NCBI RefSeq assembly: GCF_021023085.1
Contig: NZ_PGCK01000007.1
Coordinates: 1-64,000 of the forward strand
Length of the DNA: 64,000 bases
Reading direction: 5' to 3'
DNA from: Methanooceanicella nereidis
GTDB taxonomy: Archaea; Halobacteriota; Methanocellia; Methanocellales; Methanocellaceae
Below the pieces are notes generated by a model. That model did no database searches. It was given only the letters and a program-made list of their open reading frames with translations, and was not told the origin of the DNA. The stretch's first letter is position 1. Each line of letters starts with the position of its first letter. Positions 44,989 through 51,369 of this stretch are shown piece by piece. The position numbers and the translations under genes were made by a program.

Positions 44989-46947
44989 ATGAGCGGGAGG
45001 AGACCTTTCGAGAACGCCCTCGACCATATTTTCTGGTGCGACGGGTGTAATGTGCCATTAATATCAGAAAACTGTGATACGTGCAAAGGTACTGGCAGGA
45101 AGGTACTTTTGTCCCCTCCCGGGGATGTACGCTTCTGTTCCCCTTACGAAAGAGAACTTATCAGGGATCTTTTTACAGGCACATATGGGTGCGATCCTGT
45201 AAAGGGCCGATTAATACTTTTAAATAAGATCCCCGGGGACGATAAGACTGACGAAGTGATAATTGACGGCCATACCATTGCTGTCGTTTCATATGACCTG
45301 AAGGACTCATGTTATAAGCTTGACCTCAGGCTTGAGGGAGCAAAGATCCTGATGCCATTGACGAACGCAAAGACTGTGGTCTTAGACGTTCCGAGAGGAA
45401 AGCACCTGAATGGCAAAGGCGTTAGCGGAAGGTCTGTCGTGTCGGCCTCGCCCGATATTAAAAAGGATGATATTATACTGCTCCGTGTCAGCGACACATT
45501 TAACGGCTACGGCGTGGCAAGGACAGACAGCGATGGCCTGAAGGACCCTTCCGAAAACACTATAAAGATCAGGAAGATCAGCAGCAACAATGTCATATTG
45601 AACGATAAGGCTAGTGATATACAGGATGCGGTCAACGCTAACCGGTCAAGGATAAGGGCGATGGAAAAGGACGCTGTCAATATCCTGAAGGGAATAACCT
45701 GCCAGGGAAAGAACCGCGAGCTTCCCGTCACCGTATCGTTCAGCGGAGGTAAAGATAGCCTGGTCGTCTTGAACCTTACCCGAAAAGCCGTTAAGAACTA
45801 CGAGACATTTTTCATAGACACAGGCCTGGAATTTCCGGAAACCGTAAAATTCGTCGAGGATTTTGCAGCCTCAAACGGAATAAACATCCAGATAGAAAAG
45901 GCCGGCAATGCTTTCCAGGAAAATTTCCCGGCATTCGGTCCTCCTGCAAAGGACTTCAGATGGTGCTGTAAGGTCTGTAAGCTCGGCCCGATAACCAGGA
46001 TATTGTCCGAACGTAAAAAGGGCTGTATAACCATCGACGGTAAACGCCGCTACGAATCCTTCCAGCGCGGCAACATAGGCACAATAGAGCGAAATCCATT
46101 CGTGCCGGGCCAGATGGGCATCTTCCCGATAAAGGACTGGAGGGCTATCGAGGTATGGCTGTACATACATCTTGAAAAGCTGCCATATAACGAACTTTAC
46201 GATATGGGCTTTGAAAGGATAGGCTGCTGGCTATGTCCTGCGGCGCTTCAGGCAGAATATGTGAGAATGAAAGAGATACACCCGGATAAATTCGAGGAAT
46301 GGCAGGATAAGCTTTACGAATGGGCGGGTAGGTCGGGGCTTTCCAGAGAATATGTGGACCTGGGGTTCTGGAGATGGAAATCCCATCCGAATAAGATGCT
46401 GAACATCGCAAAGGAAAAGGGCATAAGCTTAAAGGCTGAGGCTACCGGGGACAGCATGTCATTGAAGATCATACGGGGCATAAGTCCGTGCGTCAGCGGA
46501 GGCTTTAGCATCGAAGGCGTGCTCCGCCTGCCAGAACGCGCCCCTGTCGAGCATGTTTTAGAGATGCTAAAAACCATCGGCTCGCCCGTATACTCTGAAG
46601 ACCTGGACGTGACTCTGGTCAAGGCAGCCCGGGGCACAAGCAAATTATTCGCAGCCGGCCAGGTTTATGCATCCTCGGACGATAAGATGTATGCCCAGAG
46701 GCTTTTTGAGGACACTGTCAAACAGGTATTGCGCGCAGCCATGTGCACAAGGTGCGGTATCTGTGTAAAAGCATGCCCCAGAAGGGCCGTCAAGCTGGAT
46801 AAACACGTTAAGGTAGACTCAAACCGCTGTGACCAGTGCGGCCGCTGCACAGATGCATGCGTTGTCGCAAGGTACTATAATAAATTAACTTCCGAAATTA
46901 AAAATACTCCAAATAAACAGTTTATTTATGGTAAAAAGTCAAAATAA
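44989..46947 (+). CDS. Zinc ribbon-PUA-APS/PAPS-reductase-like-ferredoxin fusion protein
   Basis: 652 residues with four parts. An N-terminal zinc ribbon (CDGC...CDTC near 17-35); a PUA-like domain (about 75-185), usually RNA-binding; a PP-loop sulfonucleotide-reductase domain (SGGKDSLVVL near 249, DTGLEFPETVKF); and two C-terminal [4Fe-4S] motifs (CTRCGICVKACP, CDQCGRCTDAC). The reductase domain has Cys326-Cys327 and Cys413-x2-Cys416, the CC...CxxC iron-sulfur signature of APS reductases, but the C-terminal catalytic ECGLH-type Cys motif is not seen. It could reduce a sulfonucleotide or act in RNA thiolation; the PUA domain favours RNA. Related proteins occur in other methanogens. Confidence 0.82.
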   Translation: MSGRRPFENALDHIFWCDGCNVPLISENCDTCKGTGRKVLLSPPGDVRFCSPYERELIRDLFTGTYGCDPVKGRLILLNKIPGDDKTDEVIIDGHTIAVVSYDLKDSCYKLDLRLEGAKILMPLTNAKTVVLDVPRGKHLNGKGVSGRSVVSASPDIKKDDIILLRVSDTFNGYGVARTDSDGLKDPSENTIKIRKISSNNVILNDKASDIQDAVNANRSRIRAMEKDAVNILKGITCQGKNRELPVTVSFSGGKDSLVVLNLTRKAVKNYETFFIDTGLEFPETVKFVEDFAASNGINIQIEKAGNAFQENFPAFGPPAKDFRWCCKVCKLGPITRILSERKKGCITIDGKRRYESFQRGNIGTIERNPFVPGQMGIFPIKDWRAIEVWLYIHLEKLPYNELYDMGFERIGCWLCPAALQAEYVRMKEIHPDKFEEWQDKLYEWAGRSGLSREYVDLGFWRWKSHPNKMLNIAKEKGISLKAEATGDSMSLKIIRGISPCVSGGFSIEGVLRLPERAPVEHVLEMLKTIGSPVYSEDLDVTLVKAARGTSKLFAAGQVYASSDDKMYAQRLFEDTVKQVLRAAMCTRCGICVKACPRRAVKLDKHVKVDSNRCDQCGRCTDACVVARYYNKLTSEIKNTPNKQFIYGKKSK

Positions 46948-48536: not shown

Positions 48537-49472
48537 TTAAATATTTTTATCCAAGGCCATTTGGATCTTTCTATCCTTCGATAATGTCAGAGCTGCCAGA
48601 TATATGATGGCGACTATCATCAATGAGCTAATATATTGTTCAAGTATCAGTGTCGATATCGATGCGACCAAACCCATCGATATTAATGATATAAATGCTA
48701 ATATGGTCGTTTTTTTATCCGTCATCATATCTTTGGCAGCTATAATGATCACAATGAAAAGCATGGTCAGTATCGTTATGATCATTCCGTATTCGTCTAT
48801 CATGGACATTATCATGGACATTATTATTCCTGTACCTAAAAGAAGATAGGTCAGTCCGAATTTATGGTATATATACCGGTCATCCGATCCGGCTATCGGC
48901 TCGTCGCCATCTCTGGATCCATTCTTGAATAACGCTTTACGCATCCGTGTTTCTTTCCCGTGTATGCCCAGGGAATATATCAAATGATTCACCATCAGCC
49001 CCATCACTATACCCAGTAACGCTCCCGCGATCACGTCTGACGGGTAATGGACTCCGAGATGTATCCTGCTAATGCCTACAATGGAGGCCAGGCCATAACC
49101 GATCAACCGATACCTTGTTTCCAGGAACGATCCTATAATGACGGCTATTAAAAACGATGCCTGAGAATGGCCGCTGGGGAAGGAATAGCCTGAGGAGAAC
49201 AGAAACAGGGAATTATAGCTTCCTTCCGGCCGGGGCCGTTCTATAGCCTCTTTAATATCGTCGACAACGACAATGCTGAATATCAAAGATATGGCCAGGA
49301 TCGCTGCTATCTTCTTTTTATCGCCGAATATCAGGTAGACCGCTGTAATGAATAACCATACATAAGGGTTACCAAGCTGGGTGAGAATTAAAAAGAATGA
49401 CCTTGAGTCGGTTGTAGCAATATCAGTTATTGCTGTAAACAAATACTGGTCATAAGAGCTTAGCCCCTGCAT
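48537..49472 (-). CDS. PAP2-superfamily membrane phosphatase
   Basis: 311 residues, about eight to nine membrane helices. The three acid-phosphatase motifs are intact: KEAIERPRP near 75, PSGHS near 98 and SRIHLGVHYPSDVI near 135-148. By family it dephosphorylates a lipid phosphate or isoprenoid diphosphate, for example polyprenyl diphosphate recycling in glycan assembly. The C-terminal half (about 205-300) adds four helices of unknown role beyond the usual core. Confidence 0.88.
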   Translation of the reverse strand: MQGLSSYDQYLFTAITDIATTDSRSFFLILTQLGNPYVWLFITAVYLIFGDKKKIAAILAISLIFSIVVVDDIKEAIERPRPEGSYNSLFLFSSGYSFPSGHSQASFLIAVIIGSFLETRYRLIGYGLASIVGISRIHLGVHYPSDVIAGALLGIVMGLMVNHLIYSLGIHGKETRMRKALFKNGSRDGDEPIAGSDDRYIYHKFGLTYLLLGTGIIMSMIMSMIDEYGMIITILTMLFIVIIIAAKDMMTDKKTTILAFISLISMGLVASISTLILEQYISSLMIVAIIYLAALTLSKDRKIQMALDKNI

Positions 49473-49633
49473 ATTAAGAATCGACTCTCCGTTTCCAAGT
49501 TTTTAACACAATAATGATAAATATATCCGATATATTATCCAGTACGCTGACCATACTTAATTCTGTTATTATTAACTAAAGGTAATGAAATTATATGATA
49601 AAAGATTAGTGTTATATAGAAAGTTTTATATGT

Positions 49634-49790
49634 CGGAAGATAATATCCTACTTCCGGTAGTAATTACACCAGGACCTACCAGGTGATGAAATAATTAAAT
49701 GGCACCCCCGTGCGAAGTGCGAAAGATGGTTTCACCAAACACATCCTTTTTAGCGCGGGGGCGTCACACCACTTATTTTTAATAAGCCTG
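49634..49790 (+). ncRNA. Candidate structured non-coding RNA
   Basis: A GC-rich fold sits in an AT-rich gap. GGCACCCCCGTGC (49701-49713) pairs with GCGCGGGGGCGTC (49753-49765) over 12 of 13 positions, counting three G-U pairs. Inside, GATG/CATC and GTTT/AAAC form an upper hairpin around CACC. ACA follows directly after the lower stem. Upstream, CGGAAG/CTTCCG and CTAC/GTAG hairpins overlap and exclude each other. A TATA-like TTATATA at 49612-49618 would place a start near 49640, and a CTTATT/AATAAG palindrome follows. The strand is inferred from the TATA box. H/ACA-like geometry is possible, but no kink-turn is visible. Confidence 0.45.
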
Positions 49791-49795
49791 AAACA

Positions 49796-50509
49796 TTACT
49801 CAATTTTACTTAATATCTCTTTTGGCCGCCTGAATATTATGACTGATTCCATCTCAGAGAGCATCTTAGTATTTCTTGAGTCCACTTTCCTTATCTTTAA
49901 GGGGACCGCTTCCCCGCCTGATATCGCTCCGTTCCTGCATAGTTCGACGCAAGATCCGCATCCCTTACATCTCAGAAGGTCTATCTGGTCGGTTATTGCT
50001 TCATTCGGGCAGGAATCCCCTGGCGGGCAGTCCTCACAGGACAGGCATTTTGACCTGTCTATCGTATACGGCATCTCGGAAGTGACATCGCTGTCCCAGT
50101 CTACCGGCACGACATATGTCGGGACGCCGCTTTTCATTGCCTGGGCGGCACAGTTCGTGACCAGCGTATCTGCTATCCCGAATACTATCTTTGCCACAGT
50201 ATTAGAAGTGGCCGGAGTCAGTATAAAAAGGTCATATCGTCCGACGTTGAACCTTCCTATCTTCGGGAAGCTTGAGCCCTGGTTGGAGTCCAGGTATATC
50301 TCGTTCAGGTAGCTGCCGTCGGATATCTCGTTCAGTGAATCGAACAGCCCGTACATCTTCGATACTTCTTCACCTGCTCTCGACAGGAACGTCGTAATGG
50401 AGTGGCCTCTGTCCTTTAGCTCTTTCATTACGCCATATGATTCCCTGAGGTAATGTCCTGCTCCGGTTATCCCCCATGCTATGCGAAGATATCTGTCATT
50501 CGGGCTCAT
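49796..50509 (-). CDS. Dihydromethanopterin-reductase-like flavoprotein with ferredoxin motifs
   Basis: 237 residues. The N-terminal flavoprotein domain (IAWGITGAGHYLRES, then LFILTPATSNTVAKIVFGIADTLVTNCAAQAM, then VVPVDWDSD) resembles the FMN-binding Dfp/UbiX-like fold of the archaeal dihydromethanopterin reductase (acceptor) family. The C-terminal half has two iron-sulfur motifs (CLSCEDCPPGDSCPNEA and CKGCGSCVELC). The likely role is reduction of a dihydropterin in tetrahydromethanopterin synthesis, or a related flavin/Fe-S reduction. The GTG at 50518 is an alternative start. Confidence 0.8.
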   Translation of the reverse strand: MSPNDRYLRIAWGITGAGHYLRESYGVMKELKDRGHSITTFLSRAGEEVSKMYGLFDSLNEISDGSYLNEIYLDSNQGSSFPKIGRFNVGRYDLFILTPATSNTVAKIVFGIADTLVTNCAAQAMKSGVPTYVVPVDWDSDVTSEMPYTIDRSKCLSCEDCPPGDSCPNEAITDQIDLLRCKGCGSCVELCRNGAISGGEAVPLKIRKVDSRNTKMLSEMESVIIFRRPKEILSKIE

Positions 50510-50634
50510 GCTCAACACAAAATGATTTTATTGTATTTGCATCTTGTAGTTTATATCTTTATTGATAAGGCTGCATCTCCCGCTTAAATTTCAGAATCAT
50601 TAAATATGGATAAAAATATAATTAATATTTTGCA

Positions 50635-51369
50635 ATGAAAATATTCGACACCGTCAACGTGAAAATAATCAGGAAGGAGAATTCAGTCGTAATATGTTTA
50701 CCCTTAGAGTACGCCTCTCTTGAAAACTTTGACGCGGTACTGTCCGCGGGCGTTGACGGTGATGACTTTGTTTTTATGGTCAAGCCCGACATTAAGCCCG
50801 TCGTTAAGGATACGATCAATTCGCTCTGGAGCGACATGCGCGTATTGTTCTCAAAGATCAATGACATCGGCGAGACTCCGCCATGGGATGACATCGATCT
50901 TGTATGGCAATCACCGCATTCCTATGAAAAAAAGATACCTATCTCTTCGGAAGAGGTACTTGAATACTGGAGGATAAGGTCTGCAGTTGAAGAAAAAGGG
51001 TATATGGAAGGCAGTGAGGAAGACGTGCGAAAGGGCATTCACGATACTTTCACAAAACTCTGCGAAATGGCTTCGAGGAAGCTTGGTTTTAAGGATAAGT
51101 TTTTCCAGGCGGCTTTTGGGGATGCCGTTGCCAATAAATATTCACTGATAAGCTGTATGTATGGCACTTACGACGTCGTCTGCGAAATATTCTCGGAAGA
51201 GTTCGTAAAGGTCAACGATGACCGGTTCTGGTCATTGACATCGGAAAAGGCGCAGGATGCTGTACAGGCCGCATTCGAACGGATAAAATACCTGGAATCC
51301 GACAGGGAGGAGTTTGAAAAAGAAAGAGCACGGGTGCAGGAAAAATGGGGGTTTCCCTTGAGGGCATAA
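50635..51369 (+). CDS. Uncharacterised protein
   Basis: 244 residues, soluble, acidic and mostly helical in its C-terminal two thirds, ending in a charged coil (FERIKYLESDREEFEKERAR). The N-terminus is beta-like (TVNVKIIRKENSVVICLPLEY). Trp-rich segments (LWSDMRVLF, PPWDDIDLVWQ) stand out. No family recognised. It is divergent from the flavoprotein gene, with an AT-rich promoter region between. Confidence 0.65.
   Translation: MKIFDTVNVKIIRKENSVVICLPLEYASLENFDAVLSAGVDGDDFVFMVKPDIKPVVKDTINSLWSDMRVLFSKINDIGETPPWDDIDLVWQSPHSYEKKIPISSEEVLEYWRIRSAVEEKGYMEGSEEDVRKGIHDTFTKLCEMASRKLGFKDKFFQAAFGDAVANKYSLISCMYGTYDVVCEIFSEEFVKVNDDRFWSLTSEKAQDAVQAAFERIKYLESDREEFEKERARVQEKWGFPLRA

Follow-up and report, generated by a model that had tools for sequence, protein, structure and literature searches.

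Locus, neighbouring genes and synteny

The window, that is, the whole 64,000-nucleotide stretch of DNA analysed here, comes from a genome belonging to the Methanocellales and contains a gap at 49473-49795 that, as the initial annotation had held, carries no gene and is flanked on both sides by genes on the minus strand. The features of this region are as follows.

48537-49472, minus strand: gene for a PAP2-family membrane phosphatase (PF01569, 78.6 bits)
49620-49631, plus strand: BRE and TATA box of the predicted RNA gene (GAAAG TTTTATAT; GAAAGTTTTATAT), assigned from sequence and relatives
49624-49656, plus strand: conserved promoter block, from the TATA box to the predicted start
49656-49697, plus strand: variable 5' leader of the predicted RNA (about 42 nt)
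49699-49768, plus strand: conserved hairpin and adjoining ACA of the predicted RNA, assigned from folding z, BLAST and pair changes in the stem
49726-49741, plus strand: apical part with the loop UUCACCAAAC, the proposed pairing site
49796-50518, minus strand: gene for a dihydromethanopterin reductase (acceptor)-type flavoprotein with a 4Fe-4S domain (TIGR02700, 305.7 bits, above the cut-off)

The flavoprotein gene, which lies outside the RNA gene, and the PAP2 gene are synteny markers: their order is the same in relatives, and the flavoprotein orthologues share 73-79% identity. Four Methanocellales genomes were compared, namely the source genome, M. paludicola, Methanocella sp. PtaU1.Bin125 and one further Methanocella genome, similar in size to that of M. 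arvoryzae. Using a 201-bp query from the gap, BLAST recovered the hairpin (E 9.2e-11) and the promoter block (E 5.5e-4) in PtaU1.Bin125 and the promoter block (E 1.3e-8) in M. paludicola, in both cases adjoining the orthologues of the flavoprotein and PAP2 genes, with no other credible match among 60 genomes; matches in one family, f14 (E 7e-4 and 0.016), lack the hairpin. The promoter block and the hairpin form a syntenic single-copy unit in three of the four Methanocellales genomes. In the fourth, the same two genes are only about 90 bp apart, and both the promoter block and the hairpin are missing.

Elsewhere in the window, a short tandem TCATGGACATTA repeat within the PAP2 gene (48800-48830) produces a short Met/Ser/Ile repeat in the protein, and the plus-strand gene at 44989-46947 encodes a protein of 652 aa with, by eye, a PAPS-reductase-like domain and C-terminal ferredoxin-type cysteine motifs. 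At 50635-51369 on the plus strand lies a gene for a 244 aa protein with no Pfam or NCBIfam match; a similar gene adjoins the same flavoprotein in PtaU1.Bin125 (locus L031, 625-1380, minus strand), making this protein a conserved unknown beside a methanopterin enzyme.

Conserved promoter block and hairpin

The TATA-like box proposed by the initial annotation, whose range was 49634-49790, is present and starts before that range, with TTTTATAT at 49624-49631 and an A-rich BRE (GAAAG) immediately upstream. In both relatives, the box reads TATATAT and is likewise preceded by an A-rich stretch. From the TATA spacing, the RNA is predicted to start near 49654-49656; for comparison, the predicted BRE/TATA promoters of Methanolobus stand about 19-22 nt away from their starts (PMC5378194). 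Between the TATA box and the start, the promoter block holds an imperfect inverted repeat, CGGAA..TTCCG, with a wide spacer, which suggests a possible operator or regulator site. The block is a single occurrence in its own genome, where a search allowing up to three mismatches found no second copy. A regulon sharing the repeat was considered and rejected, the source genome having a single site and exact 12-base matches elsewhere lying in unrelated contexts.

Downstream of the variable leader, the hairpin is built as the initial annotation described it and lies at the place given there. The lower stem pairs GGCACCCCCGUGC (49701-49713) with GCGCGGGGGCGUC (49753-49765) over 13 positions, including one A.C mismatch and two G.U pairs; above it stands an upper hairpin with a one-base bulge, and ACA (49766-49768), present in three species, follows directly 3' of the lower stem. 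The hairpin is GC-rich and folds at -29.5 kcal/mol compared with a shuffle mean of -18.5 kcal/mol (z -3.98, with none of 200 shuffles equal), the wider stretch around it gives a folding z of -3.83, and the homologous hairpins in the two relatives give -4.58 and -4.11. The overlapping alternative hairpins that had been proposed upstream (49656-49697) can indeed fold, but they are not conserved, only 9 of 60 columns in this leader being invariant, and the length of the leader varies between species.

Across the three sequences, conservation is organised in blocks. Invariant columns number 6 of 27 upstream of the TATA box and 28 of 33 from there to the predicted start, fall to the low value of the leader, and then rise again in the 5' arm of the lower stem (11 of 12) and in the apical part (13 of 17), with the 5' internal loop (1 of 19), the 3' upper and internal part (6 of 15), the 3' arm plus ACA (12 of 17) and the downstream sequence (4 of 38) completing the profile. 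Read from the sequences, this pattern is the one expected of a regulated promoter followed by an RNA that depends on its stem and loop but not on its leader or internal loop.

Base pairing in the stem is well preserved, the 15 stem pairs being formed in 95.6% of cells as opposed to 42-63% for slid partners. Of the paired stem changes that the initial annotation named as support, two are found, one pair going from C-G to U-A and the other from G-C to A-U, but with three sequences only they do not reach significance, 113 of 500 shuffles attaining the observed value. We therefore treat covariation as supportive only.

The covariance-model search that had been suggested recovered the hairpin in three Methanocellales genomes, at 88.8, 87.5 and 77.3 bits, scores that are high by construction because the same three sequences built the model. 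Nothing convincing was found in the fourth Methanocellales genome or in the remainder of the 295 genomes of the phylum, and the source genome has a single copy. Weak matches in other families had E values of 0.018 and above; the five best of these were rejected as distant homologues, since by eye they look protein-coding or low-complexity. Comparison with Rfam left the element unmatched as well, with no match over the gathering threshold in the 64 kb window and nothing plausible at the element in a relaxed scan of the loci. As a separate observation, a region upstream of the flavoprotein gene in the fourth genome (locus L030, 966-1349) gives sub-threshold matches on both strands to several microRNA families of plants and animals, and looks repetitive and of low complexity rather than like RNA genes.

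Direction of transcription and alternative readings

Taken together, we read the locus, with a probability of about one half, as an intergenic gene that encodes a small regulatory RNA of the Methanocellales. Judged by its sequence, the candidate has its own promoter in an intergenic region, as is asked of an intergenic sRNA. The RNA would lie on the plus strand, measure about 115-130 nt and have its 3' end just past the hairpin. The A-rich BRE, by its side of the TATA box, gives plus as the direction of transcription, and conservation runs from the TATA box to about 25 bp downstream, ending where the start is expected. The promoter block and hairpin are both kept in two relatives and both gone from the third, in line with the independent transcript with its own promoter proposed by the initial annotation, a reading that is probably right. 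Its other suggestion, a regulatory leader, is unlikely because no plus-strand gene follows the hairpin before 50635. We found no T-run common to the three species that would mark the 3' end of the RNA.

Because the hairpin folds equally well on both strands, the chief rival is a role on the minus strand, in which the hairpin would serve as a 3'-UTR structure that terminates the flavoprotein messenger or makes it more stable, and the block at 49624-49656 would be an independent element, such as a distal promoter or operator for the PAP2 gene. In all three species, the hairpin begins about 5-30 nt past the flavoprotein stop codon, the minus-strand folds are as stable or nearly so (-28.8, -29.1 and -30.3 kcal/mol), and some pairs that are broken on the plus strand become wobbles on the minus strand. 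Each strand, however, has wobbles and mismatches of its own, and wobble pairs leave the strand undecided. Against the minus-strand role, the BRE direction and the TATA spacing indicate the plus strand, and the PAP2 gene has no need of the 49624-49656 block as its promoter, since in M. paludicola it has its own, nearer TATA-like box (GGAAATTAGTTATATG) close to its ATG. The fourth genome would also have to lack two unrelated elements at once, a terminator or stability hairpin needs no conserved loop of about 10 nt, and PtaU1.Bin125 lacks a T-run after the hairpin on the minus strand. We consider a minus-strand role unlikely.

Less likely still is a plus-strand RNA whose main role, as a cis-antisense or convergent transcript, is to control the flavoprotein messenger at its 3' end, with the GC-rich hairpin stopping read-through from both sides. 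The predicted RNA does lie tail to tail with the flavoprotein gene, with the hairpin at the junction in three species, but termination in archaea depends mainly on U-tracts and not on hairpins, and the conserved loop would be left unexplained.

The single hairpin with its ACA had been likened to an H/ACA pseudouridylation guide, which would direct rRNA modification. It shares with archaeal H/ACA guide RNAs an internal loop between two stems and an ACA, kept in three species, right after the lower stem; it differs from them in several other respects, and we regard this assignment as very improbable. In archaeal H/ACA RNAs, the upper stem has a K-turn or K-loop built on sheared G.A pairs (PMC7991803). 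Here, neither is found, the apical parts GGUUUCACCAAACACAU of the source genome and GGCUUCACCAAACUCAU of PtaU1.Bin125 having no GA at all, which confirms the missing kink-turn that the initial annotation itself had pointed out. The guide positions are the least conserved of the element, as the 5' guide stretch (the internal loop counted above) illustrates. We scanned the pocket registers of the three species against 16S and 23S rRNA, with the 16S rRNA of the source genome standing in for that of PtaU1.Bin125, whose own was not found; the best matches differ between species and give no common site. The family rule asks for 7-9 pairs in the lower stem and a distance of 14-16 nt from the ACA to the upper stem (PMC4652768); the stem seen here has 13 positions, and the spacing in the fold is more than 14-16 nt and fits only if the top four stem pairs open. 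The H/ACA lead is wrong, and the element should not be classed as H/ACA.

A box C/D guide (C = RUGAUGA, D = CUGA, with conserved spacing) was also rejected: the GUGAUGA of the leader is not present in M. paludicola, and a match to sR42 in the PtaU1.Bin125 locus (L031) scores only 16.9 bits against a cut-off of 38. A small protein gene is barely credible, because the open frame that overlies the hairpin in the source genome (ATG at 49699, MAPPCEVRKM..., 27 codons, with the ribosome-site-like GGTGATG upstream) runs for only 5 codons in M. paludicola and 8 in PtaU1.Bin125 before a stop, and these relatives do not conserve the ribosome-site-like sequence.

Proposed function of the loop and known regulatory RNAs

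For the small regulatory RNA that we favour, we propose the following course of events. RNA polymerase would start near 49656 on the plus strand and make an RNA that ends just past the hairpin. A regulator would bind the inverted repeat between the TATA box and the start, and therefore the RNA might be made only in certain conditions. By means of its rigid stem, the RNA would then present the loop, whose consensus in three species is UUCACCARAC, to messenger RNAs and pair with them in trans, probably where they have GGUGA-type ribosome-binding sites, thereby blocking translation or changing messenger stability. By analogy with sRNA154 and sRNA41, the loop would most likely act by pairing with ribosome-binding sites.

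The loop contains UCACC, which is complementary to GGUGA and is the anti-Shine-Dalgarno core of the 16S rRNA 3' end (GGATCACCTCCT). GGTGA-type sites are the commonest among the window genes with a recognisable ribosome site (14 of 54). Part of the loop in M. paludicola may pair into a small side hairpin. Other places in the genomes with an exact complement of the 10-nt loop (GTYTGGTGAA) are not ribosome-binding sites, and TTGGTGA before ATG is enriched, including in the genome that has no copy of the RNA. The search with GTYTGGTGAA and TTGGTGA-N-ATG found no conserved target, a result of little power given the many TTGGTGA sites, compared irrespective of orthology. Pairing of the loop to the 5' end of 23S rRNA (GUUUGGUGGA, nt 20-29) was rejected, since 38 of 150 shuffled loops do equally well and PtaU1.Bin125 has a different best site. 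A further-reaching idea, tentative and on balance unlikely, is that UUCACCARAC serves as an anti-Shine-Dalgarno element of a broad translation regulator in Methanocellales, with a dedicated regulator on CGGAA..TTCCG as its switch.

Archaeal regulatory RNAs with known targets are few, and the worked examples that we found come mainly from Methanosarcina and haloarchaea. Methanocellales are important methane makers of rice fields, for which a conserved RNA gene with its promoter would offer a compact test case, and its absence from one Methanocella genome provides a natural comparison.

Among known systems, the closest in description is sRNA154 of M. mazei, compared here by its description. Loop 2 of sRNA154 masks a ribosome-binding site (PMC5867862), and the operator reported for its gene is GGTA-N6-TACC, bound by NrpRI (PMC3177094). 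That operator is not present as such at our locus, where a wide spacer separates the halves of the repeat CGGAA..TTCCG, so that NrpR control was rejected; there is also no known link to nitrogen here. Shared with sRNA154 (PMC5867862, PMC3177094) are a gene that stands alone in a methanogen's intergenic region, an operator-like inverted repeat in the promoter, stable hairpin loops and a loop directed against ribosome-binding sites. M. mazei sRNA41 masks ribosome-binding sites by short complementarity and has defined targets, the acetyl-CoA decarbonylase/synthase messengers (PMC5867862); in contrast, no conserved target was found for the candidate RNA, which, again by description, resembles sRNA41 in the masking proposed for it. 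Of the "new class" considered in the initial annotation, the restriction to one order and the lack of an Rfam match stand, but the kind is that of the archaeal intergenic regulatory RNAs already known; what is new here is an order-restricted candidate RNA with an unusually well conserved promoter.
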